64,000 nt of DNA from Paraburkholderia sediminicola. GTDB lineage: Bacteria; Pseudomonadota; Gammaproteobacteria; Burkholderiales; Burkholderiaceae. Position 1 is the stretch's first letter; each line of letters begins with the position of its first letter. The position numbers were made by a program, and so were the translations under genes. Below, piece after piece: positions 15,928-37,806 of the stretch. The notes below the pieces were generated by a model. It saw nothing but the letters and a program-made list of their open reading frames with translations, ran no database searches and was not told the DNA's origin. The stretch covers positions 62,001 through 126,000 of the forward strand of contig NZ_CADIKC010000001.1 of the NCBI RefSeq assembly GCF_902859805.1, in the 5' to 3' direction.

Positions 15928-16060
15928 GATTGTCAGCGATCTGGACATCAACCGCGAATGGCCGAAATTGGCCGCACTGAGCCTGACGACAAGCAGCTCA
16001 TTTCGACCCACAAGGGACGATCACGGTTAGCGGAAGCGGACACTGGCGAGCAGCGTCGAC
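15928..16060 (+). repeat. Intergenic hairpin element with dyad
   Basis: Begins with GATTGTCAGCGATC (15928-15941). Then come AATGGCCGAAATTGGCCGCA, TTTCGACCCACAAGGGACGA and AAGCGGACACTGG. It lies between the acyltransferase 3' end and the 3' end of the minus-strand cyclase gene. Confidence 0.8.
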
Positions 16061-16142
16061 GACGTCCGATGCTCCCATCCGAATTCCTACCCCAAGCCCA
16101 TCCGCGACGGTACGGTTTGAGTGCTTGCCGGCCTTCGGGCGA

Positions 16143-17336
16143 TCAGACGATATCAAGCTCGGGGGCATCCGACGTCTGACCTAATGGCTCCGTGACCACC
16201 CGGTTCCTCCCCGCGCGCTTCGCCGCATAGAGCAGGTGATCGGCGCGCGCCAGCAACGCTCCGACCGCCTCGCCAGGTCGATACCGGGCAATGCCGGCAC
16301 TCGTCGTAACGCACAGCGTAGCCTCGATTTCATTAAAGCGTGAAGACTCCAGCACGGTGCGCAAGCGCTCGGCGATCTGATACGCGAATTTATCGTCAGC
16401 GCCCGGCAGCAGAAGCACGAACTCCTCGCCGCCGATGCGCGCCACCACGTCTTTCTCGCGCACCGCGGCTCGCAGGATTGCGGCGAACTGGCGCAGCACC
16501 GCGTCGCCGGCCGCATGCCCATAACGGTCGTTGATGGATTTGAAGTTGTCGATGTCGAAAGCGATCAGCGCGAGCGGATAGCTTCGCTTGTCCGCGACGC
16601 GGCGGCCCGCCATGCGTTCGAACGCGCGCCGGTTCAACGTTTCGGTGAGCGAGTCGAGATCGCGTTCGAGAGTCAGCCGGTCGATCACGTCCGACATCGC
16701 GGCGGCCAGCAGCACGAGCCCCAACACAGCGCCCATCAAGGCGAGCGACAACTGCAGCAAGACCCAGAAAATGGTGCTCGCGAACGGCGCAGCGCTATGC
16801 GGCAAGGGTTGGATCGTAGTGAGCGGCGTTCTGATGAAAAAACTGGCGCCGAAGATCAGCAGCGCCCAGAGAAGAACGTGGTTGACGGTGCGGCCATTGC
16901 AGCGTTTCCTGAAACGGACCGCGGTAAACACCATCAACAGCCCGGCGCTGAGATTCAGAATGTAGACGCGCAAGAGCAGGTTGGACGTCACGAAGGAGAA
17001 GTAATACATGCCGCCCAGCACGAGCGCGAACATCGACGCATGCGTCGCTAGCCGCAAGTGAAGCCCAGCCCTGCGCAAAACACCTTCCGCCAACAGTTGA
17101 ATGCTTAACACATAAAACGTTGCCGATATAAGCGCGTTCAATCGCCATTCATCCGGCAGGTGACAGATCTGCACTGCCGAGCCGAGTGCGAAAGCAACAA
17201 ATGAAGCGGCGAGAAAGCGCAGATAGCGCAGTCGTCTATCGTAGAGCCATGCACAGGCAAAACCGAGCGAAAAGACGGCCGTGATACCTGGGATGATCAA
17301 TTGAACGAGTTGATTGGGCGTTATCTGAGCGGGCAT
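16143..17336 (-). CDS. Diguanylate cyclase with N-terminal membrane sensor
   Basis: A 397-residue protein with about six N-terminal membrane segments (1-215) and a C-terminal GGDEF domain (about 225-385). The active site reads GGEEF at about residue 302. The inhibitory I-site RxxD (REKD) lies five residues before it, so both synthesis of c-di-GMP from GTP and product inhibition are expected. DIDNFKSINDRYGHAAGD is the usual metal/GTP-binding segment. It acts at the inner membrane and probably affects biofilm or motility. It forms a single-gene unit with an element at its 3' end. Confidence 0.92.
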   Translation of the reverse strand: MPAQITPNQLVQLIIPGITAVFSLGFACAWLYDRRLRYLRFLAASFVAFALGSAVQICHLPDEWRLNALISATFYVLSIQLLAEGVLRRAGLHLRLATHASMFALVLGGMYYFSFVTSNLLLRVYILNLSAGLLMVFTAVRFRKRCNGRTVNHVLLWALLIFGASFFIRTPLTTIQPLPHSAAPFASTIFWVLLQLSLALMGAVLGLVLLAAAMSDVIDRLTLERDLDSLTETLNRRAFERMAGRRVADKRSYPLALIAFDIDNFKSINDRYGHAAGDAVLRQFAAILRAAVREKDVVARIGGEEFVLLLPGADDKFAYQIAERLRTVLESSRFNEIEATLCVTTSAGIARYRPGEAVGALLARADHLLYAAKRAGRNRVVTEPLGQTSDAPELDIV

Positions 17337-17546
17337 GTGGCTCGTTCTCCGCTGCCGGCCACAAAATCGCCGGGCCTATGGGTTGGCGGTTCTCAGGGCG
17401 TGCATCGTCAGCCGCCATTGACGACTCTCCCAAAAATGGACGTGGCACCCGATATGGTCAGAGGATTGTACGCCTGGCGAGTGGGAGCCCTCGGGCAAGG
17501 CGATAGTGTCGCATCCGGTCTCGGGTTCGGAAATTGATGCGCGCTG

Positions 17547-17670
17547 GATTGTCAGCGATTCTTCTGACATCGGCGAAGGTCCCTTATGGGTCGAACTGCG
17601 CCCACTACAACTGGGTCAGTTCGATCCATTGCGGACAATTGGCTGCCTCGGTAGCGGACGTTCGTCGGAC
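17547..17670 (+). repeat. Intergenic hairpin element with dyad
   Basis: GATTGTCAGCGATT at 17547-17560, then CGAAGGTCCCTTATGGGTCG, GGGTCAGTTCGATCC and the outer end GTAGCGGACGTTCG. Separates the start of the cyclase gene from the 3' end of the next minus-strand gene. Confidence 0.75.
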
Positions 17671-17708
17671 GGATGTAAGCCGAGAAGGTAGACTCTGGAA
17701 CCTTTCGT

Positions 17709-18080
17709 CTATGGTTCGCCTCGGTCAACCTTCCAAACGTAGACTTTGCCGCTCGCACCAATCGTGTAGTCGACTTTCAGCGGCTCGCCAGGGACGGCAT
17801 CAAATGGCGCGGGATACTCGATCTCCTGCCCTTGAACCCGGAACACGAATTTCTCCGTGGCAGCGAATCCCTGCTTCGGTCCAGGCCGATACATGCCAAT
17901 GCGCTCAATGGTGGAATAGCCGTGATGCATCGATCGGTTCGAAAGTTCTGTTTTGAAGCGCCCCGTCAAGTAAAGGTACCCAGCAATGCCAAGCGCAATC
18001 AAGCCGATGGTGACTGCAAACGGCACACCCCACTCGCGCAGGTAGATTCGTGCATCGAGTAACAAATATCGTCGTTTCAT
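17709..18080 (-). CDS. Hypothetical single-pass membrane protein
   Basis: A 123-residue protein. The ATG at 18080 (MKRRYLLLDARIYLREWG) is used because everything upstream in frame lies in an intergenic element. One membrane helix (VPFAVTIGLIALGIAGYLYL, about 21-40) follows a short basic cytoplasmic tail, leaving a small extracytoplasmic domain. The domain's pattern (EKFVFRVQGQEIEYPAPFD, GEPLKVDYTIGASGKVYVWK) resembles small DUF3592-like beta domains. That likeness is tentative and the function is unknown. Unit of the accessory array. Confidence 0.7.
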   Translation of the reverse strand: MKRRYLLLDARIYLREWGVPFAVTIGLIALGIAGYLYLTGRFKTELSNRSMHHGYSTIERIGMYRPGPKQGFAATEKFVFRVQGQEIEYPAPFDAVPGEPLKVDYTIGASGKVYVWKVDRGEP

Positions 18081-18100
18081 TTTTTGGTCAGTGCTGTCGA

Positions 18101-18240
18101 CCGATTGTACGTGGCCGGTTACTGCCTGATGGCGACCGGCAACACACGACACTGGGCAGCCCCTCGGCCTTGCCCGAACCGGCCATTCCTCCGGAGACGT
18201 TTCTTGGCTTCGCGGTCGGTCAGGCCACACTCGCCGACCC
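18101..18240 (+). repeat. Degenerate intergenic element
   Basis: CGATTGTACGTGGCCGGTTA, then CTGCCTGATGGCGACCGGCA, of the GGCAGC-arm subtype, and GGCCATTCCTCCGGAGACG. Lies between two minus-strand genes in the same place and orientation as its relatives. Confidence 0.6.
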
Positions 18241-18245
18241 GGCGT

Positions 18246-18518
18246 CTAAACTATTTTGCGACCGTACAGGTCTTGACCAGTCAATTTGTTCGCTTCGCGC
18301 AGCAGACTCTCAAGCGCCTCATATTCCGAACCGTAGTCCAGCTTTCGTGATGCCAAACCCACGCAAGTCGACCTCAGTTCCGAGGTCAAGTCGCGTAACG
18401 CGGCAATTACTTCGCGGTCACCCGCAGATTCTTCCAATGCAGCGCGACCGATCAAATAAGCCTCCTCATACGCCGCGGCATGTACCTTCTCTCTTATGCG
18501 ATCGGAATTTGAACTCAA
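18246..18518 (-). CDS. Small hypothetical helical protein
   Basis: A 90-residue acidic protein read from TTG 18518 (SSNSDRIREKVHAAAYEEA). The start is uncertain, but CAGGGACAG lies upstream and no ATG precedes the coherent part. It is predicted almost entirely helical, with regular Leu/Ala spacing (EEAYLIGRAALEESAGDREV, SLLREANKLTG). It has no signal or membrane segment. It is a self-contained unit between two elements in the array. Function unknown. An immunity-type or adaptor role would be a guess. Confidence 0.6.
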   Translation of the reverse strand: MSSNSDRIREKVHAAAYEEAYLIGRAALEESAGDREVIAALRDLTSELRSTCVGLASRKLDYGSEYEALESLLREANKLTGQDLYGRKIV

Positions 18519-18549
18519 CTTAGTCTGTCCCTGACAATGCGGATTGAGC

Positions 18550-18666
18550 GATTGTCGTCAATCTTGACAACGATGTCGAATGACTGCGGCCGGCCTCTGC
18601 CCGACGCGGTCGGCTCAGTTCGACCCGGAGCGGTCGTTTGACTTACCCCAAAACCGACATTCAAAG
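18550..18666 (+). repeat. Intergenic hairpin element with dyad
   Basis: GATTGTCGTCAATC at 18550-18563, then TGACTGCGGCCGGCCTCTGC, GGTCGGCTCAGTTCGACCCG and the outer end CCGACATTCAAAGG. Position and orientation match the neighbouring copies. Confidence 0.75.
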
Positions 18667-18755
18667 GCCATGAAGATACATGGGAGCAGCGGTCGACCTT
18701 CTTCATCTACCGACGCGCGCCCCCGACTTGCTAAGGGGTGGTTTCCTCTCACTTT

Positions 18756-19235
18756 TTAAGTCGTTGCGATCTCTATGGTAATTTCCGGTTCGGACGGCGA
18801 TGCAACATCAACGACCTGATTCAGGCAATACGCAGCCCAATGCCTGTAAGGTCCGGGGTGGTCATCGCAGGCCCATGACGCCTTGCGCATGTAGTTGAGA
18901 TACTCCGAGCGCATGTATTCCTTGAAGAGTTTCCCTGACCCGTCGGAGGTCTCGGGTTCCCCCGACGCGTAGCTTTCGTTGACAACAGAGTACGCAATGT
19001 AGCTAGACCAGCGGATATCAAATATGCGACATCCAGGCAGATGCTCGATCGCGCGCGCCCCCTTAAGTATGCCTGTCAACTCAGGGGGCGAGTCAAAGCC
19101 GAGCTTTGCCGCGTCGACGGGACCACCTTCGGTTGCCTCCAACAGGACAAGCCGCAATGTCCGGTCATCCATTTGGCCGATACCTCTGAGATAGAGATAT
19201 CGGCAGTCCAAAAAAATATCGGTCAGTTTTGACAT
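18756..19235 (-). CDS. Hypothetical immunity-like protein
   Basis: A 159-residue soluble acidic protein beginning MSKLTDIFLDCRYLYLRG. It has no signal peptide. It has a mixed alpha/beta pattern, with Trp and aromatic residues near the middle and end (IFDIRWSSYIAYSVVNES, KASWACDDHPGPYRHWAAYC). Size, acidity and lone-gene context resemble the orphan immunity proteins of contact-dependent or polymorphic toxin loci, but I do not recognise a named family. No toxin gene is next to it. The ATG at 19235 is the first available start after the element. Confidence 0.65.
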   Translation of the reverse strand: MSKLTDIFLDCRYLYLRGIGQMDDRTLRLVLLEATEGGPVDAAKLGFDSPPELTGILKGARAIEHLPGCRIFDIRWSSYIAYSVVNESYASGEPETSDGSGKLFKEYMRSEYLNYMRKASWACDDHPGPYRHWAAYCLNQVVDVASPSEPEITIEIATT

Positions 19236-19266
19236 AGTGTTCGGAGTTCCCCGCGAGAATCGGGTC

Positions 19267-19380
19267 GATTGTTAACGATCTATGCCGTGGTGTCGACTGG
19301 CCGTTCATGGCCGCACTTAGCCGGATGGTGACCAGCGGAGTTCGGCCAGTTTCGGACGTTCAACGTTCGGTCGTGAGCGT
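19267..19380 (+). repeat. Intergenic hairpin element with dyad
   Basis: GATTGTTAACGATC at 19267-19280, then CGTTCATGGCCGCACTTAGC, CGGATGGTGACC and TTTCGGACGTTCAACG. This copy clearly shows the CTTAGCCGG hairpin arm. Confidence 0.8.
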
Positions 19381-19576
19381 CCGGATCGCGGCGAATTACC
19401 GCCGTCCCGATGGTATGCAAAAGCGCAACGAACAGCGCATTGCGATAAAGTCGGTGCCGACACGCCGCGCGATTTGCTCAAAATATTGTCATCTCATCAG
19501 CAAGCTGCGTCGTGTGGATTGGTGCGCGACCGATTCGATGCCCTCGTTCTCGCGCCTATCGAACACACCGGCCGAA

Positions 19577-20113
19577 CTAGGATTTACAGGAACTCGTCGA
19601 CCTGAGCGGATACGGTACGGTGGAGGTGCCATTTACACTTGAGACAAGTTCGCGCGCGAAGATCTCGTCAGGGCCATCATTGTCTTGGATCAAGATCTCG
19701 TAGTCATGCCCGCGCTCGGGCACGAAAGTGCTAGCTTTCGGCGCGTCGGTCACTCTGTACCGCTTCCCGTTGATAAACTGTTCGCTCACAATCTGCGCAT
19801 GAACTGTCATTGGCTGGCCAGCCGGGACAATGTACTCGTGGAAATACCGAGCCGCGTCGGGTGGCACGGGCATGCCGACGGTTTTGTTAGACAGGCTCGA
19901 CAAGCCGGGTTTGGACGCGACGAAGTGCTTGGCCTCACCTGTAACGCACGCAGTGTTCAAGTAAAAGGTCACATTCGCTCCCCAATACACACGCACGCGA
20001 GCTTCCGTTTCCGGGTGATAGTCCGCCGCAGTCTGAGACGGCGTCCCCGCGTAGGCGCACAGCAGCACTGAGCTGACAATTGGAACGAACAGGGTGGCAG
20101 TATGACGTGTCAT
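19577..20113 (-). CDS. Hypothetical secreted protein or lipoprotein
   Basis: A 178-residue exported protein. The N-terminus MTRHTATLFVPIVSSVLLCA is a signal peptide. The Cys after VLL could be a lipid anchor, but the lipobox is imperfect. The mature part is beta-rich (EARVRVYWGANVTFYLNTAC, GKRYRVTDAPKASTFVPERG), like small periplasmic immunoglobulin-type domains of unknown function. No family was recognised. It is a unit of the array with an element at its 3' side. Confidence 0.65.
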   Translation of the reverse strand: MTRHTATLFVPIVSSVLLCAYAGTPSQTAADYHPETEARVRVYWGANVTFYLNTACVTGEAKHFVASKPGLSSLSNKTVGMPVPPDAARYFHEYIVPAGQPMTVHAQIVSEQFINGKRYRVTDAPKASTFVPERGHDYEILIQDNDGPDEIFARELVSSVNGTSTVPYPLRSTSSCKS

Positions 20114-20729
20114 TGGGCGTGAAATCGGGAGAACGAAGGCGAGCGCTTGAAGCGATATAACCAGCGTGACTGACTATCGAAAATTCGCACTATCTATATC
20201 GGCTTCGAGTCAAAAAACTTAAATTCGAAGGTGGACCCGCCATCGTGCGTACGCTGCCGTCCCCCGAACCCTTGAGGCATCGGATCTGTCTAATACCGAC
20301 AGTGTCTGGGGGGCACAAAGCTGCTCTTGCGTTTGCGCAACGTGAATGGCTAACCGTCGGTGCCACAATGGTCATTGCGCTTGCCGACCACCCATTTATA
20401 TGCTCATTTTCCGACGAGCATCACCGCCATTCGCACCAACCGCAAAACGTCGTCTGTTCGTCCGCTTTCCGCACGAATCCAGGCGCCTAGCGTTTGAACA
20501 TAAAAGGCAGCGATGGGTCGACCTATGCCGGACGACACTCGGCCCAGTTCGACCCCGAGCGGACTTTCGGCATACGTGGGAACGAACGACCAAAGCCAAG
20601 CCGCCCTCGCCCTTCGCGAAAGCTCCACCTAGACGCGTGCGCCGCCCCTCAACTATCCTTGCGACACCATCAAGAGCTAACCGCGTCCTATCTCCCTACA
20701 TTTCCTTCGCTTCCTTTTACTGGTCGGCG
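20114..20729. other. Gene-poor stretch with element and possible gene stub
   Basis: Contains a partial element at about 20526-20575 (GGCCCAGTTCGACCCCGAGC, then GGACTTTCGG). On the minus strand, directly after the element, a short frame ending at 20404 reads AAFYVQTLGAWIRAESGR and VLRLVRMAVMLVGK. This could be the C-terminal stub of a gene cut at the element border. Nothing else here is convincing. Confidence 0.4.
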
Positions 20730-27944: not shown

Positions 27945-27954
27945 AGATGGACGA

Positions 27955-29205: not shown

Positions 29206-29211
29206 GCGCAA

Positions 29212-29582: not shown

Positions 29583-29705
29583 AATTGTCGCCGATTCGAG
29601 GCACGTGGTCGACTGTCCGAAAGTTGCCGGTCACTGCCCCACGCAAATTGCATACGCAGCCCCGAAGCCACAACAGTTTGAGACAAGCGCGGAGGCCGTC
29701 CCAAG
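29583..29705 (+). repeat. Intergenic element with dyad
   Basis: AATTGTCGCCGATT at 29583-29596, then GTGGTCGACTGTCCGAAAGT and TGCCGGTCACTGCCCCACGC, of the second subtype. Confidence 0.65.
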
Positions 29706-29734
29706 GGTGACGGCCGTTTGAGTTTCCCGACGAG

Positions 29735-30244
29735 TCAGTGACGCGCGACGCTGTAAACGTCCCAATGCGGATCCTGATAGCGTGCCCTTATGCCCTGCTC
29801 CAATTCAGCCGCGCTGGCATAGTGAAACAGACCCTCCTCGATGTCGTAGAAGTGCAGCCGCCCAGCGCGTGTGTCCACCGCCATCATATGGGTATCGTTG
29901 GCGATCAGGTACACCCCTGGTGTGGCGAAGACGATTCCGAACAATGCCGTGAGCGACACCTGATCGCCCATCTGAGCACCCTGCAGTTCTGCCTGCTGCA
30001 GGAGGTTCAACGTCGCCTCTTGTTCGGTTCCCACGTTCCAGCGGTACTTCACTTGCAAGATGCCTGTGCGCATCTTGTCCGGATTGGAGTCCTTAGGTGC
30101 GACAGCAGGGTCGAGCGCGGTCTTCGTCCACAGCACGCTGGCCGCTACGCACCAGCCATAACGGCGAAGAATTCTGCGGTCGCCGGCCTCAGTTTGCGAG
30201 CTGTAGTAGTCGTTGCGAGATGCGAAGAGTTGGATTTCTGACAT
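29735..30244 (-). CDS. Candidate C58 (YopT/papain-like) cysteine protease
   Basis: A 169-residue protein from ATG 30244 (MSEIQLFASRNDYYSS); the frame is open upstream but is not protein-like. It has the Cys-His-Asp arrangement of YopT-type proteases: RYGWCVAASVLWT (Cys32, with the small residues and Trp usual after the nucleophile), ANDTHMMAVDTRAG (His119) and LHFYDIEEGLFHY (Asp134). His-to-Asp spacing of 15 and the FYDxEEGLF motif match the family's FDPNxGxF pattern. It is shorter than YopT and lacks a visible secretion signal. It may be a toxin-domain cargo gene. Call rests on motif pattern only. Confidence 0.6.
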   Translation of the reverse strand: MSEIQLFASRNDYYSSQTEAGDRRILRRYGWCVAASVLWTKTALDPAVAPKDSNPDKMRTGILQVKYRWNVGTEQEATLNLLQQAELQGAQMGDQVSLTALFGIVFATPGVYLIANDTHMMAVDTRAGRLHFYDIEEGLFHYASAAELEQGIRARYQDPHWDVYSVARH

Positions 30245-30596
30245 GATATGGGCCTCAATCGACATACGTGAAGCATTGGGCGACATGCGACCCAACGCAC
30301 CCCGGACCACCCGGGACGAGACCAGTCTAGGGGGCGCCCTCAAGGCACGATATCCACCGGATGGGCCAAACGCAGACAAGGGCCTTATGGCATAGGCCCT
30401 TCCCGCCGTATCGCCGGCAGCCAGGCGCCGAAGGCGAGTCGATGCGCTGCGGGGCACCGCGTAGCTACAAAAGAATCGTGTGCCGCGAAAGATTCTCTGT
30501 TGATCACACGCTCCTCACCGCAGCAAAGCGTTGGGTTACTGCCTTTCGCATACCAGAAACTTCAACAGAGTGGCGCTCGAGGATTGCCGAAGGCAG
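30245..30596. other. Non-coding stretch
   Basis: About 350 bp without a credible gene. It includes GTATCGCCGGCAGCCAGGCG (about 30408-30427), perhaps a decayed element arm. It is the widest gap inside the otherwise regular array. Confidence 0.4.
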
Positions 30597-30848
30597 TTAA
30601 CGCTCCTTCTTTTTCGCCTGTGCAGCGACCATCCAACAGACCACCGCACCCGCAGCCCAACCGCATGCGAACATCAGTTCGAGATCGAGCAAGCCTTGAA
30701 AATTCTCCGCATTTTCGTAGCTGCATGTCTTATGAGTTTGGAACTGGATGCAACCAGTTTGCATGTCTTGAAAGACGACAAACAATTTATACAGACCCAA
30801 TGCCGTGAATGCCACGGCAATAAGAGCGAACTTCTTCGAGTTGTTCAT
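30597..30848 (-). CDS. Small hypothetical membrane protein (two TM segments)
   Basis: An 83-residue protein starting MNNSKKFALIAVAFTALGLY. Membrane segments lie at about 6-26 and 54-76 (LELMFACGWAAGAVVCWMVA), separated by a polar loop with two Cys (GCIQFQTHKTCSY) that could form a periplasmic disulfide. It ends in AAQAKKKER. No family recognised. Unit of the minus-strand array with an element at its 5' side. Confidence 0.65.
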   Translation of the reverse strand: MNNSKKFALIAVAFTALGLYKLFVVFQDMQTGCIQFQTHKTCSYENAENFQGLLDLELMFACGWAAGAVVCWMVAAQAKKKER

Positions 30849-30882
30849 CGCACGCTCCGTTGCTTCGTTCTAACACGATACC

Positions 30883-30944
30883 AATTTTCAACGATCCATG
30901 TGCCGAGGTCGAGAGTCCGTTCCTGACCGGTTCGCGGCGGTGAT
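30883..30944 (+). repeat. Short intergenic element with dyad-like end
   Basis: AATTTTCAACGATC at 30883-30896, then GAGAGTCCGTTCCTGACCGG. Lies directly at the stop of the NTF2-like gene. Confidence 0.55.
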
Positions 30945-31373
30945 CTAACTGGCACAACGCTGGCGATACGCGGTCACCTGCTCGATGCGCTCGACAAGAT
31001 GCGCACGATTGGCGGGGGCAGCATATGACTCCGGCCAATATTCAACGATGCGAGTGATTTTGCCGGCTTCGACTGAGAAAAACGATACGGCCCGCGCGGT
31101 CATGGATCCATCGGTAACCGTCACATCGGATACTGCTTCACTAACCGTGTTAGCCACCACCCTGTTCACTGTAAACCGCCACGGGCCTTGCGCCGGGTAC
31201 TCTGAGTTCATCTGTGCGAACCGCGCGACACCACGGATGCGTTCGTTCGACTGGGGCCATTCAAGCATGAATTGCTCACCTAACACCGCCTGCACGGATG
31301 CAAAGTCGTTTGAACCCATGAGCGTCCAAAATTCGTGGACGAGCACGGAGATATCGTTGGTGTCTTCTGTCAT
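30945..31373 (-). CDS. NTF2-like (SnoaL-type) protein
   Basis: A 142-residue protein of the SnoaL/NTF2-like cone fold: VHEFWTLMGSNDFASVQAVL, then FMLEWPQSNERIRGVARFAQ, and the final sheet VSFFSVEAGKITRIVEYWPE. ATG 31373 is used; the upstream TTG adds six residues. Such folds bind small molecules or act as isomerases. The motif WPQSxERxxGxxxF is typical of the uncharacterised members found in many bacteria. Function here unknown. Array unit. Confidence 0.8.
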   Translation of the reverse strand: MTEDTNDISVLVHEFWTLMGSNDFASVQAVLGEQFMLEWPQSNERIRGVARFAQMNSEYPAQGPWRFTVNRVVANTVSEAVSDVTVTDGSMTARAVSFFSVEAGKITRIVEYWPESYAAPANRAHLVERIEQVTAYRQRCAS

Positions 31374-31412
31374 CGTTGCTGCGTTCGGCAAATTGAATGA
31401 GTTGTGATGCGC

Positions 31413-31510
31413 GATTGTCAGCGATTCCGCCGCCTATGTCGAATGTCTCCTTTTGGCCAAACTTAGCCGGACGACGACCGGCTAAGTTGGACCCACACGG
31501 GACACCCGCA
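31413..31510 (+). repeat. Intergenic hairpin element, clear copy
   Basis: GATTGTCAGCGATT at 31413-31426. The hairpin is perfect here: TTAGCCGG, a 7-base loop ACGACGA, then CCGGCTAA. It continues into GTTGGACCCACACGGGACAC. Confidence 0.85.
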
Positions 31511-31565
31511 TTTTCGGAAAGCAGCCACTCGATGCGAGTCCGTCGCCAGCAACGCGAACCAACCG

Positions 31566-31700
31566 TTAACTATCAGTTTCCTGGAGCTTGGCAATGTCGT
31601 TCACGAGAATTCGCGGCCCCTGGAAAATCGCGAGACGTTCGTCCATTGAGTGAAGGTCTGAACGCAGATATATACCTGTTTAGCACAACGGTTGCTATCT
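31566..31700 (-). pseudogene. Possible gene stub
   Basis: The minus strand ends a frame at 31566-31568 reading GIYLRSDLHSMDERLAIFQG and PRILVNDIAKLQETDS. An overlapping second frame begins MMDAVDSNRCAKQVYICVQ. Together they look like one frameshifted small gene, but the evidence is weak. Confidence 0.3.
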
Positions 31701-31759
31701 ACAGCGTCCATCATGGGCTCCGATTGACCACTGGTGGATGAAAACCTTGGAAGCGGATT

Positions 31760-32464
31760 TCAATGCGGGAGGCTTGCCCTGGCAATCGCCGCGCGATAGG
31801 GTTCGGCTAACGCCGTCCCCTCCCGAAACAGAATGCGCATCGTCCAGCACGCATCGGAAGGAGAGACCGCGCGCAGGTTTTGCAGCGCCGAAGCGAATTT
31901 CAGCCTCTCCTGAGGGGACAGCGTGGCCTTTATTCTGGACAAGGCTTCGTTGACATCCTCCCGCTTGACGGAAGGAATGGGATCTTGTCGCAGTTCGGCT
32001 AGTGTCGCGTCGCCCGCGAGTGCAAACCAGGAATCGGCGTCAGTTTGATTGAGCTTGATCAGGCCGGCATCCATTGCGCTGAGCCCCGGTGTCGATGACG
32101 GCCCCTGCATGATCGACACGCACTCGGCTTCGCTTGCATCGTCAAGTATCTTGGACCAAATTCTCATCCTGGTCTCGAGCGATGCATCGTCAAGCCTCTT
32201 CAGGCCGGTGAGTGACAAATCGGTTCCCTTCCTAAACGCATTCTCACGCGTCGTCTTTGCCACGAACGCCTGAACGGTGGGGTCATCGTGCATCCGTATG
32301 ACGAACCTTGCGTAGCTCGTGTGGACGGGAGCGGATTCCGGGTAGGGATTGTAGATCGACGCGGCTTGGATTTTCTCCCCGGCATCTGGCGCCGAAGGGA
32401 CGTTGGCGCAACCCGTGATGGCGAGCGCACATGCGCACAGCATAAGTGTTCGGCTAAGTTTCAT
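31760..32464 (-). CDS. Hypothetical lipoprotein
   Basis: A 234-residue exported lipoprotein. The N-terminus MKLSRTLMLCACALAITGCA has a good lipobox (ITGC, Cys19). The rest is predicted helical and Ala/Leu/Asp-rich (KRLDDASLETRMRIWSKILD, EALSRIKATLSPQERLKFAS), with a Cys pair possibly linking distant helices. I do not recognise the family. In type VI and contact-dependent loci such lipoproteins can serve as periplasmic immunity proteins, but no partner is visible. Array unit. Confidence 0.7.
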   Translation of the reverse strand: MKLSRTLMLCACALAITGCANVPSAPDAGEKIQAASIYNPYPESAPVHTSYARFVIRMHDDPTVQAFVAKTTRENAFRKGTDLSLTGLKRLDDASLETRMRIWSKILDDASEAECVSIMQGPSSTPGLSAMDAGLIKLNQTDADSWFALAGDATLAELRQDPIPSVKREDVNEALSRIKATLSPQERLKFASALQNLRAVSPSDACWTMRILFREGTALAEPYRAAIARASLPH

Positions 32465-32601
32465 TGTTATTGATTAGGGTGTGCGCAGAGTAAAATCACA
32501 CGCAATCGCGCTCAAAAGCGCAAGCGTGGCTAATCATCAATTACGGCACCTAGCAAGATATGTTGAGGGATTGTCCATTCCGCAGGCAAGCGTAAATCGC
32601 A

Positions 32602-32721
32602 GTCTGTCAACGATTTGCTTGCTAACGTCGATTGCCCGCTCCTGGCCGAATTTAGCCGGATGGTGACCGGCTCAGTTCGACCCACAAGGGACGGTCGGTC
32701 GTGCCCGAAGCGGCCGTTCAA
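32602..32721 (+). repeat. Intergenic hairpin element, clear copy
   Basis: GTCTGTCAACGATT at 32602-32615, then CGAATTTAGCCGG, loop ATGGTGA, CCGGCTCAGTTCG, and ACCCACAAGGGACGGTCGGT with the outer end AAGCGGCCGTTCAA. This is the best full-length copy for deriving a consensus. Confidence 0.85.
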
Positions 32722-32740
32722 TTGAGTTCGCTCGTTATTG

Positions 32741-33277
32741 TTAAACGATGGCTTCGCCGGTCGTGTAGTCAAGCCGATAAGTGGTCCGATTGAAATCGAC
32801 TACCTCGATGCAGTCGGACAGCAAACTGAATCCTTCGGAAAACACATCGGCGCCGGATGCCGACCAGATCACATCGCCTTGCGGTGTTAGGCGCACAATT
32901 TCCAGTTCCCCGTGCGAAATGAGCGCGGCCCGCTTGCCTTCCCAGAAAATACCAAAGCACGTCGCGGTGTCGACCTGCGTTGCCCAGACCAACCGATGGG
33001 GAAAATCCAAGGACAGGCAAACGACGTGATCACCAACAGCCAAGTACAGCTTATCCTTGATCGCCACCGCCGAATGCTCATGCACCGCGGAGCATCCCCC
33101 TCTGGCACCGACGACCACAACCCCGAGTCCGTTCAGCTCAACTGCGTGGACCGACGTCAGCGTGCCGTCCGAAAGACGTACTTCAAGCGGATACGTGCGC
33201 ACATTGTCGTGTGATCCGAACGAGTAGGCTGGCTCATTTACGATTCTCACCGGGCCAGATTGTGTGTGTATTTGCAT
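32741..33277 (-). CDS. Conserved hypothetical protein (beta-rich)
   Basis: A 178-residue protein from ATG 33277. A TTG four codons upstream falls inside element-like sequence and is not used. The sequence is beta-rich with blocks I associate with a widespread uncharacterised family: AYSFGSHDNVRTYPLEVRL, EHSAVAIKDKLYLAVGDHVV, LVWATQVDTATCFGIFW and ISHGELEIVRLTPQGDVIWS. The repeated strand pattern suggests part of a propeller-like or sandwich fold. Members are often found beside toxins, but their role is unknown. Array unit. Confidence 0.75.
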   Translation of the reverse strand: MQIHTQSGPVRIVNEPAYSFGSHDNVRTYPLEVRLSDGTLTSVHAVELNGLGVVVVGARGGCSAVHEHSAVAIKDKLYLAVGDHVVCLSLDFPHRLVWATQVDTATCFGIFWEGKRAALISHGELEIVRLTPQGDVIWSASGADVFSEGFSLLSDCIEVVDFNRTTYRLDYTTGEAIV

Positions 33278-33281
33278 GCGC

Positions 33282-33385
33282 ACGTTCAACGATTGTTTGT
33301 TGGCGGGGGTCTAACTCAACGACTGGTCTTCAGTGCACCGTCGACTGGCAGGCTGTTGCCTGCCCCGTCGAACGCCCGGCTCGTC
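33282..33385 (+). repeat. Degenerate intergenic element
   Basis: GTTCAACGATTGTTTG (dyad-like) at 33284-33299, then GTCGACTGGCAGGCTGTTGC and CTGCCCCGTCGAACGCCC. Subtype with GGCAG/CTGCC arms. The dyad abuts the start of the preceding gene. Confidence 0.55.
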
Positions 33386-33426
33386 ATGATAAAACCCACG
33401 CGAACTGCTGGGCTAATCGCTCATTC

Positions 33427-33852
33427 CTATCGCTGTTCGGAGTTAAACAAAAAAGATTGGTCGCCAGCCGACGACGCCCAGTTCGCGAGTTCAGAACCAA
33501 GCCGATTGATTGTTGCAGGCTCAAGCTCAACGGCGAACCGAGATCGGGCGCTTACAAGACGCGTACCATTTCTCTGACACTCGACCTCGAGTGCCGAATG
33601 TCCAACCCCGTCAAAAACGAACGCGCGCAGAACCAGCCAGCTATATGAATTCGGAGCATTCGAGCCGTTCTCAAAAACCACTTCGTCTGTCGATGACCGA
33701 GGAAATTCATGCAGGGTACGACCGAACGTTTCTATCGTTTCTGGATAGTCGTAGAAATTGACTTCCGCTGCAAAGCCAGAGCCCTGCATGGAAAATCGAA
33801 GTTCCAACATGCCGTCGTGATCACGCCATAGCGGCTCAAGGGTAAGTAGCAT
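33427..33852 (-). CDS. DUF6228-like hypothetical protein
   Basis: A 141-residue protein starting MLLTLEPLWRDHDGMLELRF. GGAG lies 5 bases before ATG 33852, which fixes the start over the longer frame. Two beta blocks (FSMQGSGFAAEVNFYDYPET and SWLVLRAFVFDGVGHSALEV) surround a helix with FGRTLHEFPRSS. The pattern, including DGxGHxxLEV, resembles DUF6228, a family common among immunity-type genes. The assignment is tentative. Array unit. Confidence 0.65.
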   Translation of the reverse strand: MLLTLEPLWRDHDGMLELRFSMQGSGFAAEVNFYDYPETIETFGRTLHEFPRSSTDEVVFENGSNAPNSYSWLVLRAFVFDGVGHSALEVECQRNGTRLVSARSRFAVELEPATINRLGSELANWASSAGDQSFLFNSEQR

Positions 33853-33925
33853 TCCAACTCCGAACTCATCTTTCCGGGGTGTTTGACCACCTTTTACCAT
33901 AACCGGCAGGGGACCCAAACATCGA

Positions 33926-34005
33926 GATTGTTGACGATCTAGCCGGCGACAGCGACTGTCCCTTCATGGCCGGACTGAGCCCGACGGTAACCCGTGTCTG
34001 CGTCT
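33926..34005 (+). repeat. Intergenic hairpin element with dyad
   Basis: GATTGTTGACGATC at 33926-33939, then GACTGTCCCTTCATGGCCGG and ACTGAGCCCGACGGTAACCC. Here the GTCCCTT arm that pairs with AAGGGAC in other copies is well preserved. Confidence 0.75.
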
Positions 34006-34006
34006 C

Positions 34007-34432
34007 CTACGTGGGAACCCTGCGGAACCAGTGTGTACACGGCCCCAGAAACAACAGTACCGTCGCCGCTGCATTCGCCAAGAAGGCAGTCTCGTACAAA
34101 CTCAGCCGAAGCGGCGGCGACACCGAAAGGCAAAATATCGTCGTAACGACTGTCAGTAACAGTTCCAGCCATCGTGCCAGCCTCTGCCGCTGGCAGAGTC
34201 CAACGATCAAGCAGGCATTTAGAACAAGCCAGAAAGCCAGAAGGAATACTAGTAAAAAGAATCCATCGTGCGTTTTAGGTGTCAGCGGGACGCCCATCGC
34301 AATGTCTACAAATTTGGCAAACATGAAACACTCGACGAGCCAGACGACACAGAGAAGGCCGATAGCGAGGCGTATGTGTTGCGGTGCGTCGGCCTGAAAG
34401 GCTGGCATCTCTTTTAATTTTTGTATTGGCAT
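34007..34432 (-). CDS. Hypothetical membrane protein (four TM segments)
   Basis: A 141-residue inner-membrane protein with four hydrophobic segments: IGLLCVVWLVECFMFAKFVD (about 24-44), FFLLVFLLAFWLVLNACLIV (about 58-78), a third around 90-107 (LELLLTVVTTIFCLSV) and a fourth around 113-131 (ETAFLANAAATVLLFLG). It has short polar loops and no recognised motif. Size and topology match the DUF-type membrane proteins scattered through accessory regions. Function unknown. Its 3' end directly touches an element. Confidence 0.7.
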   Translation of the reverse strand: MPIQKLKEMPAFQADAPQHIRLAIGLLCVVWLVECFMFAKFVDIAMGVPLTPKTHDGFFLLVFLLAFWLVLNACLIVGLCQRQRLARWLELLLTVVTTIFCLSVSPPLRLSLYETAFLANAAATVLLFLGPCTHWFRRVPT

Positions 34433-34596
34433 CCGTTCTCAGGCGACTGTCGCCCCCCGCTCTCAGTTGTTTTGTCGTGTACGTCTTGTTGCCGTCTCGC
34501 CGCTCCGTCTCCAAGCCATAGACCTCACGCTCCCGGCAATATAGCAGCACGCGGGTAGCCACAATTATCTGACCGTTGCGCTAGGGCCGACGCTGC

Positions 34597-34645
34597 CATT
34601 GTCATCAATCGTGATCGCCATGCCGACAGTCCGTTTCTGGCCGAT
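34597..34645 (+). repeat. Partial intergenic element with dyad
   Basis: CATTGTCATCAATC at 34597-34610, then GACAGTCCGTTTCTGGCCGA. Truncated at the 3' end of the next gene. Confidence 0.6.
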
Positions 34646-35676
34646 CACGGCTCGTTCCTGCCCCGGTCTTCAAGTTTCACCCCGTGGGCGTCGCGCCCGT
34701 GCTGGTGATGTACAAGGGAGGTGACATTTCCGTCACCGTCTCTTTCAAAGGTGACTTGCGCATCAACTACCTTCCAGAAATACCGATTCTCGCTCTCCGG
34801 GAAAATCTCGTATTTCTGTTGGCGGCCATACTGAGCAAACAGTTGCTCACCCTCGATCGTGATCAATACGATCTCCATTGGACTCGTAAGCTGATACCGC
34901 CCGACACACGCCTGCTTCAAACTCAGGCCCAAGGAGATCGGCTGACGCTCTGGTCCAAGGGTAATCGAACCGATAACCTTGGGCACTAGCGGGCGCTCAT
35001 CGACTCCAGTTGGCTGGAGCTTCAGTTGGTAAGCGGTTGCGCCCTCCCGCCAGGAGAGAACGTCGGCGATAGAGTCCTCCTCGAACAGTACTGCCGCATC
35101 ATCGTCAATCGCAATCGCTGAGGACAACACGAGCATTCGCATCGTCTCCAATATCTCTTGTCGGCGAATACCGTCACCAGCGTGGTAATGGACATCGCAG
35201 ATTCCAGGTAGAAGTCCGAGGCATCGCTGGAGCGGGAGACGACGGCGCCCAGGAGGCGGCAAGGGATGCTCAAACCAGCAAACCGCACCGGCACTCATAC
35301 CAGACAGCAGGACGCCATGCTCCCACGCGTCCCGGAGCACCAGATCTAAACCCCAGTCTTTCCATAGCGCCAATGCGCAACGTGGATTGCCGCCGCTGAC
35401 AAAGATCGCATCTTGCTGCCGCAGGTGCGCTGCTGCGTCGTCCGGATGAATGCACTGGGTTCCTGCCCTTCCGAAGAAGGAGACGTTGGACGTCTGGCAA
35501 CCTAGTTTTCCGTAAATGTCATCAAAATCATTGATCAGCATTGGCGGGTCGCCGGCTGGAGTGGACAGGAGACACATCTTAGGTTGCGCCTTTCCCGTGA
35601 GGTCGCGAACGTAAGCAGCGGCGAGCGCCTCTGATTCGCCGGTCGAGAAACCTCCAATCGCAAGAATTCGTCGCAT
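34645..35676 (-). CDS. Peptidase S51-like protein fused to a DUF3471-like domain
   Basis: A 343-residue protein with two parts. Residues 1-230 are a class-I-glutaminase-like peptidase E (S51) fold: RRILAIGGFSTGESE at the start, VSGGNPRCALALW (95-104), the nucleophile elbow GMSAGAVCWF with Ser128, and HYHAG with His163/His165. S51 enzymes cleave Asp-X dipeptides or process cyanophycin. Residues 252-332 form a small beta domain (CVGRYQLTSPMEIVLITIEG, FPESENRYFWKVVDAQVTFE) like the DUF3471/lipocalin-type tail of serine hydrolases. ATG 35676 follows AAGGATG. The fusion is unusual. Array unit. Confidence 0.8.
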   Translation of the reverse strand: MRRILAIGGFSTGESEALAAAYVRDLTGKAQPKMCLLSTPAGDPPMLINDFDDIYGKLGCQTSNVSFFGRAGTQCIHPDDAAAHLRQQDAIFVSGGNPRCALALWKDWGLDLVLRDAWEHGVLLSGMSAGAVCWFEHPLPPPGRRRLPLQRCLGLLPGICDVHYHAGDGIRRQEILETMRMLVLSSAIAIDDDAAVLFEEDSIADVLSWREGATAYQLKLQPTGVDERPLVPKVIGSITLGPERQPISLGLSLKQACVGRYQLTSPMEIVLITIEGEQLFAQYGRQQKYEIFPESENRYFWKVVDAQVTFERDGDGNVTSLVHHQHGRDAHGVKLEDRGRNEP

Positions 35677-35845
35677 ATCATCCTTTCCTGAGCTATCTGG
35701 ACTGCCTCGATATCAGCAACTGACAAGGCGCCATTGCCGTTTGCTTTACATTTTCCACTGAGACCCTACGCAAACTTCACTGGGACAGCATTCGATTCGA
35801 ATTGCGCCGGAGCGGCTGATGCCCGTCTGACTGCAGTCGCGTGTT

Positions 35846-35937
35846 GATTGAAGACGATCTCGCCTGCACTACCAAATGGCCGAACTCGGCTCGGCGACGA
35901 TCGGCTCAGTTCGCCCCCAAGCGGACGTTGAGCTTTC
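35846..35937 (+). repeat. Intergenic hairpin element with dyad
   Basis: GATTGAAGACGATC at 35846-35859, then AATGGCCGAACTCGGCTCGG, CGACGATCGGCTCAGTTCGC and the outer end CAAGCGGACGTTGAGC. Confidence 0.75.
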
Positions 35938-36028
35938 TCGGACAGCAGGCATTCAATCGTCGGCGATCATGTACGGCTCGAAGAGCAAACCGCCCCGATA
36001 CTGGTTGAGTCTCGAGGTATCAGCCTCA

Positions 36029-36541
36029 TCAGTGGAGAATGCTCCGCGGATGAAGAACCAAGGCGAACAGCTCTTGTGCTCGCGCTTCGGTGATCCCGCT
36101 ATGAAAGTCAATCGATAGCGGATGGTTAGTCTGCGCGAGCTCGATAAGTGGTCTGTCCGTGCCTGCCTGAGGAAAAGTGCGTGCCTTTAGCCCCTCCACC
36201 GATGGATAGCCTGGAAGTTGATTTGCTAGCCAGCTGAAGTACGGTCCGCCCGGCTTGCCTGATACAAGCCTGGACTCATAGTCCTTGAAACTGTGCTCGC
36301 TAAGGGAAACCCATATTCCCCATAAGAACGGCTCTGCAGCACGGATGATCGGAATCTCCAGGCATGCCCGCGCGAAGAAATACCGACTGTCGATAACACA
36401 GAGGTCTTCGTTCCACCATGCTCGCGCCGCTCTGTCCGCCTCTGGTATATCCAGTAAATATCCGGGGACTTTGAAGCCGATACTGGGTTCCCCCTCGTGC
36501 CATTCCGAACATTGCGAGCACTTGAATCTCAACAGGCCCAT
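36029..36541 (-). CDS. DUF2199 domain protein
   Basis: A 170-residue protein starting MGLLRFKCSQCSEWHEGEPS, the standard DUF2199 opening: an FxCxxCxxxH metal-binding-like knuckle. It continues with SRYFFARACLEIPI, FLWGIWVSLSEHSFKDY, YFSWLANQLPGYPSVEGLKA and LAQTNHPLSIDFHSGI, in family order and length. ATG 36577 further upstream lies inside an element end, so 36541 is preferred. DUF2199 proteins are of unknown function and are frequent among lone immunity-type genes. Array unit. Confidence 0.85.
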   Translation of the reverse strand: MGLLRFKCSQCSEWHEGEPSIGFKVPGYLLDIPEADRAARAWWNEDLCVIDSRYFFARACLEIPIIRAAEPFLWGIWVSLSEHSFKDYESRLVSGKPGGPYFSWLANQLPGYPSVEGLKARTFPQAGTDRPLIELAQTNHPLSIDFHSGITEARAQELFALVLHPRSILH

Positions 36542-36574
36542 TCGATCTCTCGCGTTTTCCAGGTTGTGGTCCGC

Positions 36575-36640
36575 CATTGTCGCCAACCTGGGAACAGACG
36601 TCGAACGTCCCTTCGTGGCCGGCGCAAGCCGATCCTACTG
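36575..36640 (+). repeat. Partial intergenic element with dyad-like end
   Basis: CATTGTCGCCAACC at 36575-36588, then ACAGACGTCGAACGTCCCTT and CGTGGCCGG. Sits between the DUF2199 start and the next gene's stop. Confidence 0.6.
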
Positions 36641-36937
36641 TTAGCTTGTTCGAGTTATTTCCGATTGCGGTCGAATACCATCACTGTCGATTCGGCAACA
36701 CCACTTTACGTGCGCTGGCCAACCGCCCTCCGCGTTTTTTGCTACGACTCCATTCGCAACCAAGTCGTCTACGTTTCCGTTCTCGTCCAAGTCATGCATG
36801 TACACACGAACAAGCATTCCTTCGTACAGTTGAACCGGAACGCCGCAGGCGTCGACCTTGCTGTCGTCAGCGGAGAGCAGTACGGTATTTGCGTCGACCA
36901 TTTCATTGAAGTCGACGAAGAAATCTGACCTATGCAT
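36641..36937 (-). CDS. Conserved small hypothetical protein
   Basis: A 98-residue acidic protein: MHRSDFFVDFNEMVDANTVL, then YEGMLVRVYMHDLDENGNVD, and HVKWCCRIDSDGIRPQSEI at the end. The beta-strand pattern with the WCCRID motif is one I associate with a recurring uncharacterised protein of Burkholderiaceae. No signal or membrane segment. Function unknown. Array unit and the last of the minus-strand run. Confidence 0.75.
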   Translation of the reverse strand: MHRSDFFVDFNEMVDANTVLLSADDSKVDACGVPVQLYEGMLVRVYMHDLDENGNVDDLVANGVVAKNAEGGWPAHVKWCCRIDSDGIRPQSEITRTS

Positions 36938-37024
36938 GATTAGCCGCTATTTCCCGCCTCCAAGTCCGATCCGCCCCGCCGACGCTCGGAGCAATCGAAG
37001 GCGCAAGACGTCCCTCTTGTTGGT

Positions 37025-37146
37025 GATTGTCAGCAATCCAGACGTCCGTGTCGACCGGCCGCTCGTGGCCACCCGCCGCCTGTCGTCGATCGGCAGCGCG
37101 CAACCCGCAGCGGGCCTTAAGTTTTCCCGAAAGCGGCCGTTCAACA
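37025..37146 (+). repeat. Intergenic element, GGCAGC subtype with dyad
   Basis: GATTGTCAGCAATC at 37025-37038, then GTCGACCGGCCGCTCGTGGC, GATCGGCAGCGCGCAACCC and the outer end GAAAGCGGCCGTTCAACAG. It joins the dyad and outer end of the first subtype to a different middle. Confidence 0.75.
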
Positions 37147-37173
37147 GTCTGTGATATTTCGGATCAAAATGCC

Positions 37174-37434
37174 ATGTTTACGCCAGAGTTTTCTGCAACC
37201 GATGCCACACAACATACACTGATCGCCAATCACTATGTCGAGACGGAAGAGGCACTGAACCTAAGCGTTGCGTTCGTACGGGCGCGCATACTTTTTGGCC
37301 GACAACACGTGCCGCAGCCGACAAGGTTTGTGGTGCACTACGACGTGCGTGGACAAAGGGTTGCGGACAATCTGGAAGGCCGCCTTAAGAAAACGCTCGG
37401 AGACGTCGCCGAGGTTCGGGTGAAGCGGTCATGA
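37174..37434 (+). CDS. Small hypothetical protein, coupled to the next gene
   Basis: An 86-residue protein starting MFTPEFSATDATQHTLIANH. It has a helix (YVETEEALNLSVAFVRARIL) and a basic tail (RLKKTLGDVAEVRVKRS). The frame upstream of 37174 lies in an element. Its stop overlaps the start of the next gene as ATGA. The pair reads as a two-component unit, possibly interacting proteins. No family recognised and no strong ribosome-binding site. Confidence 0.6.
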   Translation: MFTPEFSATDATQHTLIANHYVETEEALNLSVAFVRARILFGRQHVPQPTRFVVHYDVRGQRVADNLEGRLKKTLGDVAEVRVKRS

Positions 37435-37652
37435 GCCTTCAACTTATAGTTCGTGGGATATCCCTGAGCGATGTTGAGCGCAGCCTTGACCTGCTCGACG
37501 GTAAAGCGGAAGTATTTTCGATTGGCCGAGAGCATGTCGGGATTTCTATCCCGACCCGCATGCTTGACACCGTCGGGGAGGAAAAGGTTAGAGAGGCGCT
37601 ACGACACGTGACCGTCTATGACCTTTACTCGGGCGTTTGGAACGGACAGTAA
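37431..37652 (+). CDS. Small hypothetical protein, coupled to the previous gene
   Basis: A 73-residue protein: MSLQLIVRGISLSDVERSLD, LLDGKAEVFSIGREHVGISI and a closing helix VREALRHVTVYDLYSGV. It looks like a small alpha/beta domain. The 4-base overlap with the gene upstream implies coupled translation. No family recognised. The pair is bracketed by elements at 37025 and 37687. Confidence 0.6.
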   Translation: MSLQLIVRGISLSDVERSLDLLDGKAEVFSIGREHVGISIPTRMLDTVGEEKVREALRHVTVYDLYSGVWNGQ

Positions 37653-37686
37653 TGTGCAGTCGAGCAACTTGGAACATCGACGGAAA

Positions 37687-37806
37687 AATTGCCGACGATT
37701 CGGAAAGGGATATCGACAGTCCCTTCCTTGCCGAACTTAGCCGGATGGCAACCGCCAAAATTCGCCCCGGAGCCAACAGTCAGGTTTCTCGCTAGCGGAC
37801 ATTCGA
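37687..37806 (+). repeat. Intergenic hairpin element with dyad
   Basis: AATTGCCGACGATT at 37687-37700, then GACAGTCCCTTCCTTGCCGA, ACTTAGCCGGATGGCAACCG and the outer end CTAGCGGACATTCGAG. The last clear copy of the first cluster. Confidence 0.75.

Follow-up and report, generated by a model that had tools for sequence, protein, structure and literature searches.

Probable gene-cassette arrays in Paraburkholderia sediminicola with unit borders at short GGCCA and GGGTCG boxes and a small tyrosine recombinase as predicted catalyst

The 64,000-nucleotide stretch of Paraburkholderia sediminicola analysed here (contig NZ_CADIKC010000001.1, positions 62,001 to 126,000; hereafter the window) contains a repeated intergenic element that alternates with mostly single, unrelated genes. 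With a probability of roughly 0.7, the window holds gene-cassette arrays whose units are likely exchanged by site-specific recombination at a short box within this element, with a small tyrosine recombinase as the predicted catalyst. What the sequences show directly is that the boxes exist, that units recur independently of one another and have their borders at boxes, that positions within hairpin inserts of 41 nucleotides (nt) covary, and that GGGTCG in front and GGCCA behind enclose the recombinase gene in most of its copies, across several genera. Integrons are the textbook bacterial platform for storing and shuffling single genes, and the best explanation of our observations is a system that works like an integron but differs from it in the tested enzyme and site features. 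If true, a separate platform equipped with an enzyme and a site of its own would mean that the shuffling of gene cassettes had more than one origin. A preliminary description made from the letters of the window had already proposed cassette-like behavior with breaks at a 14-bp dyad; the idea was right in kind and wrong about the place of the break.

Anatomy of the junction element

With up to three mismatches allowed, the 14-mer GATTGTCAACGATC has 25 occurrences in the window, where 7.1 would be expected and the richest of 100 shuffled sequences has 16. Alignment of 25 element copies delimited a nearly gap-free constant block of 46 nt, GGCCAnnWnSRGAC-n-TTCGAC-N10-nRATCGTCGACAATC, and a 46-position matrix seeded with 25 copies (16 from the window) was refined on its own hits. 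This matrix detected 167 copies in 1.127 Mb of array loci and none after base-by-base shuffling of those loci. At a score of at least 8, the window contains 24 copies, 18 on the minus strand (13–48 kb) and six on the plus strand (51–62 kb), as compared to none in five shuffled windows. An exact signature pattern was uninformative in the window's own genome, with two matches versus one for its reversed control. Rather than being spread evenly between operons, a distribution that would have spoken against the cassette idea, elements are concentrated in the window, which accounts for 18 of the 33 genome-wide matches (8.64 Mb) at E<=1e-6, a count from a model (R1) that is biased towards the window because 16 of its 25 seed copies come from it.

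Read along the genes, a full junction consists of stop codon, left arm (GnCCGCTTn), GGGTCG, insert, CGGCCA, right arm, 12 nt, dyad, and start codon. The junction is a two-half site, with left arm and GGGTCG behind one gene and GGCCA, right arm, and dyad before the next. The GGCCA box lies ∼45 nt upstream of the last base of the dyad, and GGGTCG ∼36 nt before GGCCA where the insert is 41 nt long. In the array loci searched, a GGGTCG-like word precedes the block at 114 junctions, and 63 of these also have a good left arm. Inserts often measure 40–41 or 74–79 nt, the commonest lengths being 41 (n = 14), 75 (n = 12), and 40 (n = 7). Several of the 74–79-nt inserts (class examples are window 61652, L155 16994, and L103 15358) have the motif TTGCATGA in common, placed inside the insert after GGGTCG. 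TCGAC occurs twice in every block, in the right arm and in the dyad, at a spacing of 21 bp, i.e., two helical turns. Repeats of ∼104 bp with GGGTCG-type words at both ends, 88–93% alike between places, were also seen (L136 3895–3998 and 16359–16462; L151 13879–13983; L149 2035–2136 with L150 8644–8746).

An open reading frame (ORF) of at least 70 amino acids starts within 250 nt downstream on the same strand for 150/167 blocks, versus 89/167 in the opposite direction, at a median distance of 50 nt from block to start. The proposed order of stop codon, hairpin, dyad, and start codon therefore stands as a rule, with exceptions: several junctions have a GGCCA-type box and block without a GGGTCG-type box or hairpin, and the ORF of one unit (U1 below, ORF at 37027–37434) lies on the plus strand. 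Among the 15 dyads originally listed, 12 correspond to clear blocks (15928, 17547, 18550, 19267, 29129, 29583, 30883, 31413, 32602, 33926, 34597, and 36575), 35846 is weak, and 18101 and 33284 were not recovered as blocks, 18101 showing a GGCCA with hairpin-like sequence at 18116. Copies that had been missed lie at 13285, 14602, 37025, 37687, and 47941 on the minus strand and at 51176, 55325, 56047, 57473, 61048, and 61652 on the plus strand. With the six plus-strand blocks (51176–61697), the arrays left and right of ∼38–51 kb point apart, a layout similar to a divergent arrangement in Paraburkholderia megapolitana (L129).

The 41-nt inserts were examined for paired positions in 19 hand-chosen examples from seven loci. 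Pairing position i with 42-i gave standard pairs in 80% of cells, 8 of the 15 pairs were changed on both sides, and the covariation score was reached by none of 500 shuffles and was strongly lowered by sliding the partner by 1–3 columns. This comparative evidence makes the 41-nt inserts a class of covarying hairpins. One array contains two copies of a 67-nt hairpin, with borders at boxes and unrelated flanks.

Shared units and their borders

The window was compared with 144 genomes of the genus, its own included. The interval 27600–37900 has matches in 38 genomes, mostly as separate pieces of up to 1.3 kb, and 12000–20700 has matches in 67. For units U1, U3, U5, and U6 (listed below), the alignments open no more than 8 bp from a GGCCA-type box and close no more than 8 bp from a GGGTCG-type box, with different flanks. 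In 28 shared segments (at least 85% identity and 150 bp; 27 loci), 23 of 56 ends fell within 8 bp of a box, whereas 2000 circular shifts gave a mean of 0.91 and a maximum of 8; a box at 27744, picked by hand after a segment end had been seen there, is excluded from this count. At least one end lay at a box in 15 segments and both ends in eight, the segments being partly non-independent (U5 gives four and U1 three of the 15). The box variants GGGGCG, GGGTTG, GGGTCC, GGATCG, and TGGCCG were chosen after viewing alignments; a stricter test free of that choice, with matrix blocks and exact GGGTCG only, retained 18/56 ends (shift mean 0.6, largest 7). An earlier test based on box words alone found 17/56 ends within 7 bp, as compared to 7.2% expected. 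Block starts were crossed by just two of the 28 segments, both at 14647, versus a mean of 17.5 and a minimum of 10 in 2000 shifts. The preliminary description had held that gains and losses ignoring element borders would count against it; this is not what the shared segments display, though no clean gain or loss between two shared neighbors was found.

Units also recur separately between species and strains, in keeping with the cassette-like behavior first suggested. Two cross-species units run from GGCCA to GGCCA: one is 94% identical with unrelated flanks (L102/L140), and the other is ∼90% identical, has GGCCA at its two outer ends, and contains 130 bp of additional sequence internally (L143/L152). 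Paraburkholderia largidicola was compared as two strains, one being F2 (AP028203.1). One F2 array contains a unit 98.5% identical to one in the other strain's megaplasmid NZ_AP023176.1 (L085:13113–13938), from GGCCA to GGGTC, and a unit 96.2% identical to one in the other strain's NZ_AP023177.1 (L103:16070–17317), from GGCCA to GGCCA. A second F2 array opens with a unit 96.4% identical to L103:11411–13040, again GGCCA to GGCCA. The unit that follows it in F2 is related (87% over 286 bp) to one located 6.7 kb further along in the other strain, and the two are joined at the box itself or no more than 3 nt from it. In all three F2 units, similarity begins 0–6 bases before GGCCA. A P. largidicola strain other than that of L085 lacks the L085 array, its flanks matching to L085:11200 and again from L086:3870 with other DNA between; the base-level breakpoint of this absence is not informative.

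Pairs of blocks from different places resolve the border further. Ten pairs are related downstream only and 17 upstream only, 13 of the latter being copies of the recombinase gene. In the ten downstream-only pairs, the non-conserved spacer of the block is ∼0.7 identical, versus 0.33 in unrelated pairs, and the letters left of the box are at the unrelated-pair level; in the 17 upstream-only pairs, the letters just right of the box are at that level. The alignments place the breaks of units at the GGCCA and GGGTCG boxes, not at the dyad as had been proposed, and assign the 14-bp dyad to the 5′ end of each unit. As a recombination point the dyad was ruled out, since it travels with the downstream gene; it may be an accessory binding site or operator. 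It was also rejected as a sigma-70 promoter, there being no −10 signal 16–18 bp from its TYGACA. The same lack of a −10 box at sigma-70 spacing argues against a purely regulatory module, i.e., an operator dyad before the gene and a hairpin terminator behind it, both kept by selection. Such a module would account for blocks before starts and hairpins after stops, and the dyad presumably resembles GntR-type operators; yet it leaves unexplained the unit borders at boxes and the boxes around the recombinase gene, and we give it next to no credence.

Reshuffling of the intervening genes by RecA-type homologous recombination between dispersed hairpins or blocks, resembling miniature inverted-repeat transposable elements (MITEs), has more in its favor. 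Element copies are repeats 60–84% alike, the recombinase is missing or broken in several array-bearing genomes, and clean single-unit insertion was not found. However, breaks sit at a 5-bp box though the conserved block spans 46 nt. Homologous recombination along that block would spread the breaks, contrary to the related spacer and unrelated left side of the downstream-only pairs, and strain pairs at 96–98% have their breaks at these boxes too. Homologous recombination needs more than five identical bases, and we regard this explanation as quite unlikely.

The half-sites, inserts, units, and cargo genes of the window are as follows.

37687–37732, minus: right half-site (box GGCAA, right arm, dyad), score 35.8; breakpoint in three genomes
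37728–37768, minus: 41-nt hairpin insert, GGGGCG...GGCAA
37103–37736, minus: unit U1, 91–92% in three genomes, both ends at boxes
37025–37070, minus: right half-site, score 49.5
37066–37106, minus: 41-nt hairpin insert, GGGTTG...GGCCA
36575–36620, minus: right half-site, score 41.8; no GGGTCG-type box found in front
35912–36624, minus: unit U2, DUF2199 gene; in a P. largidicola F2 array, 84%, GGCCA to GGGGCG
35846, minus: weak right half-site, score 10.8; GGCCA out of register
35877–35917, minus: 41-nt hairpin insert, GGGGCG...GGCCA
34645–35676, minus: cargo gene, peptidase S51 / DUF3471 protein
34597–34642, minus: right half-site, score 36.8
33926–33971, minus: right half-site, score 49.1; start of the 98% unit in G046
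32678–33972, minus: unit U3, two orphan genes; 98% in genome G046, CGGCCA to GGGTCG
32643–32683, minus: 41-nt hairpin insert, GGGTCG...GGCCA
32602–32647, minus: right half-site, score 34.9
31413–31458, minus: right half-site, score 51.7
31454–31494, minus: 41-nt hairpin insert, GGGTCC...GGCCA; strongest of eight folds, z −4.3 with flanks
30917–31458, minus: unit U4, SnoaL-like gene 30945–31391; similarity starts at GGCCA in one genome (L198) and stops at GGYCA in two others (L180, L181)
30883–30928, minus: right half-site (box GGTCA), score 40.7
29583–29628, minus: right half-site (box GGCAA), score 39.4
29129–29174, minus: right half-site, score 40.1
27955–29079, minus: cargo gene, Sel1-repeat protein
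19267–19312, minus: right half-site, score 54.2; hairpin 19308–19348
18550–18595, minus: right half-site, score 40.4
17547–17592, minus: right half-site, score 34.2
16004–17594, minus: unit U5, GGDEF gene 16143–17336; both ends shared, 90–98%, three genomes (L202, L204, L205)
15928–15973, minus: right half-site, score 43.3; hairpin 15969–16009
14602–14647, minus: right half-site crossed by two shared segments, score 36.8
12201–13336, minus: unit U6, 93% in genome G044, starting a few bases ahead of CGGCCA and ending immediately ahead of GGGTCG
13285–13330, minus: right half-site with 75-nt insert, score 39.8
47941–47986, minus: right half-site outside the range first described, score 26.1
51176–51221, plus: right half-site, opposite orientation, score 25.4
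55325–55370, plus: right half-site, opposite orientation, score 49.9
56047–56092, plus: right half-site, opposite orientation, score 27.9
57473–57518, plus: right half-site, opposite orientation, score 34.5
61048–61093, plus: right half-site, opposite orientation, score 29.1
61652–61697, plus: right half-site with 77-nt insert, opposite orientation, score 46.2

A candidate tyrosine recombinase and its proposed action

The predicted catalyst is a 208-amino-acid tyrosine recombinase, encoded beside and inside arrays of related genomes and found in 70/144 genomes of the genus at E<=1e-60. Its Phage_integrase domain (PF00589) covers residues 42–192 only, with 41 residues in front. Across 30 aligned relatives, R59, K87, H156, and H182 are invariant and R159 and Tyr191 are conserved in >90%; we take these to be the catalytic residues, from the pattern known for the family. 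The sequence falls far below the cut-offs of the IntI, XerC, XerD, and DNA invertase models (25 bits against 265 for the integron-integrase model TIGR02249; 23 bits against 222 for the invertase model NF007371), and the solved structures that it matches are XerH, XerD, an XerC-like protein, and XerA (E 9e-6 to 6e-5). A structure prediction with a mean predicted local distance difference test value of 56 was not used.

The surroundings of the gene were surveyed in 79 non-identical loci from named species. A GGGTCG-like box precedes the gene in 76/79 loci, with all six letters in 64 (4.7% by chance), and GGCCA follows within 75 nt of the stop codon in 68/79 (13.8% by chance). Among pairs selected for inner likeness, identity drops from 0.98 to ∼0.3 at the front border, with the first G of GGGTCG (60 pairs), and from 1.00 to 0.25 at the rear border, after GGCCA (488 pairs). 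Outside the boxes, conservation persists at spaced positions (−9, −7, +11, and +13) that lie symmetrically around the box. Of two Pandoraea loci, one has the box borders as well, as do Cupriavidus, Achromobacter, and Pseudothauera; in Ralstonia and Pseudomonas, the copies examined have at best a weak front box. The 46-nt block lies near the gene in Paraburkholderia (16/35 loci), Caballeronia (6/13), Burkholderia (5/6), Pandoraea (1/2), and Pseudomonas (1/2), and in none of 22 loci of eight other genera. In the 0.72 Mb surrounding 40 recombinase genes, 42 elements of at least 33 bits were found (∼58 per Mb); the genomes of 18 same-genus relatives, ∼142 Mb in total, have 136 at E<=1e-6 (∼1 per Mb), which puts the density near the recombinase at ∼60 times the genome average.

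Boxes that flank the recombinase gene in genera with no 46-nt block nearby, e.g., Achromobacter and Cupriavidus, are what would be expected if only this gene and the GGGTCG...GGCCA hairpins were mobile in the manner of a transposon, the genes between being passengers moved by other means. The box borders and unrelated flanks of the recombinase unit and of the twice-present 67-nt hairpin fit as well. Against this stand the gene units themselves: in comparisons of strains and of species, boxes border them as well, with GGCCA at one end and either GGGTCG or GGCCA at the other, making passenger status decidedly unlikely.

With site-specific exchange as the preferred reading, the recombinase is proposed as the agent from the position of its gene, the borders, and its conserved residues. 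Units that begin at GGCCA and end at GGGTCG or the next GGCCA recur singly in other species and strains. The enzyme would cut in the GG common to GGGTCG and GGCCA, boxes that appear to sit in arms of opposite sense. A free unit would be a circle in which left and right arms meet around the box as an imperfect palindrome; on closing of a hairpin or recombinase unit, the inner arms would meet instead. Because the junction palindromes differ in arm sequence and the hairpin covaries, recognition by shape is suggested, the palindrome rather than a fixed arm sequence being read as with attC. Hairpin and recombinase gene may then be alternative fillings of the slot between the two boxes. On balance, we lean slightly towards an integron-independent cassette platform, whose recombinase would read palindromes around GGYCR, would be encoded within the loop of such a site, and would have built long arrays of shuffled single genes in Paraburkholderia, Caballeronia, and Burkholderia.

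Several observations weigh against this account. An element of at least 33 bits is present in 16/40 recombinase neighborhoods; a recombinase match at E<=1e-20 is missing from nine of 18 element-bearing genomes; and a genome of another family (G030) has the recombinase and no element. Away from any box lie 33/56 segment ends, many of them inside units, and in an all-against-all comparison 73/94 ends of segments that exclude the recombinase carry neither box, GGCCA or GGGTCG, in both copies. A clean single-unit insertion or loss with both neighbors shared was not found among 24 colinear length differences, one of which had box-like words at both ends, a level that chance can give. Caballeronia SBC1 and SBC2 are 99.99% identical over the 40 kb compared. 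A strict pattern for an empty site (left arm, box, right arm) returned no match; a loose pattern, with 175 matches versus 54 in shuffled sequence, was not used. Folding of eight sites as single-stranded DNA was strong in one (z −4.3), weak in three (−1.7), and absent in four.

The preliminary description had noted the absence of an integrase, which holds for the window in that the candidate recombinase is not encoded there. It is present in related arrays, and a single copy was found elsewhere in the same genome (G000:C1:1216743–1217234; L097 6705–7271), near another array. This copy is frameshifted and without the C-terminal part bearing the catalytic tyrosine. Arrays seem to outlive the recombinase and, the only copy found in this genome being broken, those of the window may now be immobile. 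Three consecutive Phage_integrase matches, of which one falls short of the family cut-off, were also seen at G000:C5:180684–184258, near an element cluster at C5:188–220 kb. Recombinase relatives number at least 7999 proteins at E<=1e-30, and with thousands of relatives the platform may be widespread; 354 plasmid records match at E<=1e-40, including ones from Sinorhizobium, Vibrio, and Escherichia, as do three phage records at E<=1e-20. On the Escherichia coli plasmid NZ_CP020517.1 (L167), a recombinase relative has related words behind it (AAAGCGGGCATT), and the element type may reach beyond Burkholderiales.

Comparison with known systems and neighboring genes

Integrons are a close comparison. 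Shared with them are arrays of genes that are mostly single, unrelated to each other, often orphan, and oriented one way, a junction site with palindromic parts, a short crossover box, and a variable interior, a tyrosine recombinase, arrays without an intact enzyme, and the recurrence of gene-plus-site units with breakpoints at the site. In contrast, the box here is GGYCR/GGGTCG rather than GTTRRRY/RYYYAAC, the site is split so that each unit bears the right arm and dyad at its 5′ end, the enzyme is catalytic-domain-only and far below the integron-integrase cut-off, and its gene mostly lies between the two boxes of a site, an arrangement unlike attI. A degenerate sedentary integron with a lost integrase, i.e., a cluster of attC sites lacking integron-integrases (CALIN), would show the same single-gene units in one orientation, with a hairpin site after the stop codon, a crossover box, and integrase-free arrays in several genomes. 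However, as first reported, attC ends are lacking: none of the 63 sites with a good left arm has GTTRRRY or RYYYAAC near its ends. TIGR02249 matched 0/144 genus genomes at E<=1e-40, though no control genome matched either. Together with the low integrase score and the position of the recombinase gene, this renders a CALIN very improbable.

MITEs and repetitive extragenic palindromic elements are likewise numerous short palindromic intergenic repeats with a larger coding relative; here, that larger relative encodes a tyrosine recombinase, and entire genes are found repeatedly between constant borders. A MITE of a tyrosine-recombinase element would be expected to share terminal inverted repeats with an autonomous copy; the hairpins and the recombinase unit have GGGTCG and GGCCA in common, the inverted likeness of their ends having been judged by eye only. 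FimB and FimE are ∼200-residue tyrosine recombinases with a catalytic domain only, which invert one promoter segment; the enzyme described here is similarly small and catalytic-domain-only, and differs in being associated with arrays rather than one promoter segment. Tyrosine recombinases generally have a core-binding and a catalytic domain, according to PMC8138268, unlike the 208-residue protein found here. In the pdif modules of Acinetobacter plasmids, genes move between short tyrosine-recombinase sites (PMC12907356 and PMC11705084), as units are proposed to do here; those modules use XerCD (PMC12907356) rather than a dedicated small enzyme encoded in the arrays. No description of the present system was found in the titles and abstract openings of the open-access papers listed, which dealt with integrons, Xer/pdif modules, MITEs, and repetitive extragenic palindromic elements, subscription papers and preprints lying outside this scope, and novelty is provisional. 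A separate platform could account for many of the orphan genes in Paraburkholderia islands, and its enzyme, box, and arrays are defined and open to testing.

No transfer RNA gene was found in the window, and a tRNA-linked island was rejected. Between the two arrays, 40767–46304 on the minus strand encodes an 1845-amino-acid protein with AAA helicase, DUF4011, MTES_1575 nuclease, and WGR domains, which could be a defence-type gene; an M48 peptidase protein (46253–47446) adjoins it. The sole Rfam match in the window is a C4 antisense RNA (RF01695; 7501–7592, minus strand), a type known from P1/P4-like prophages.

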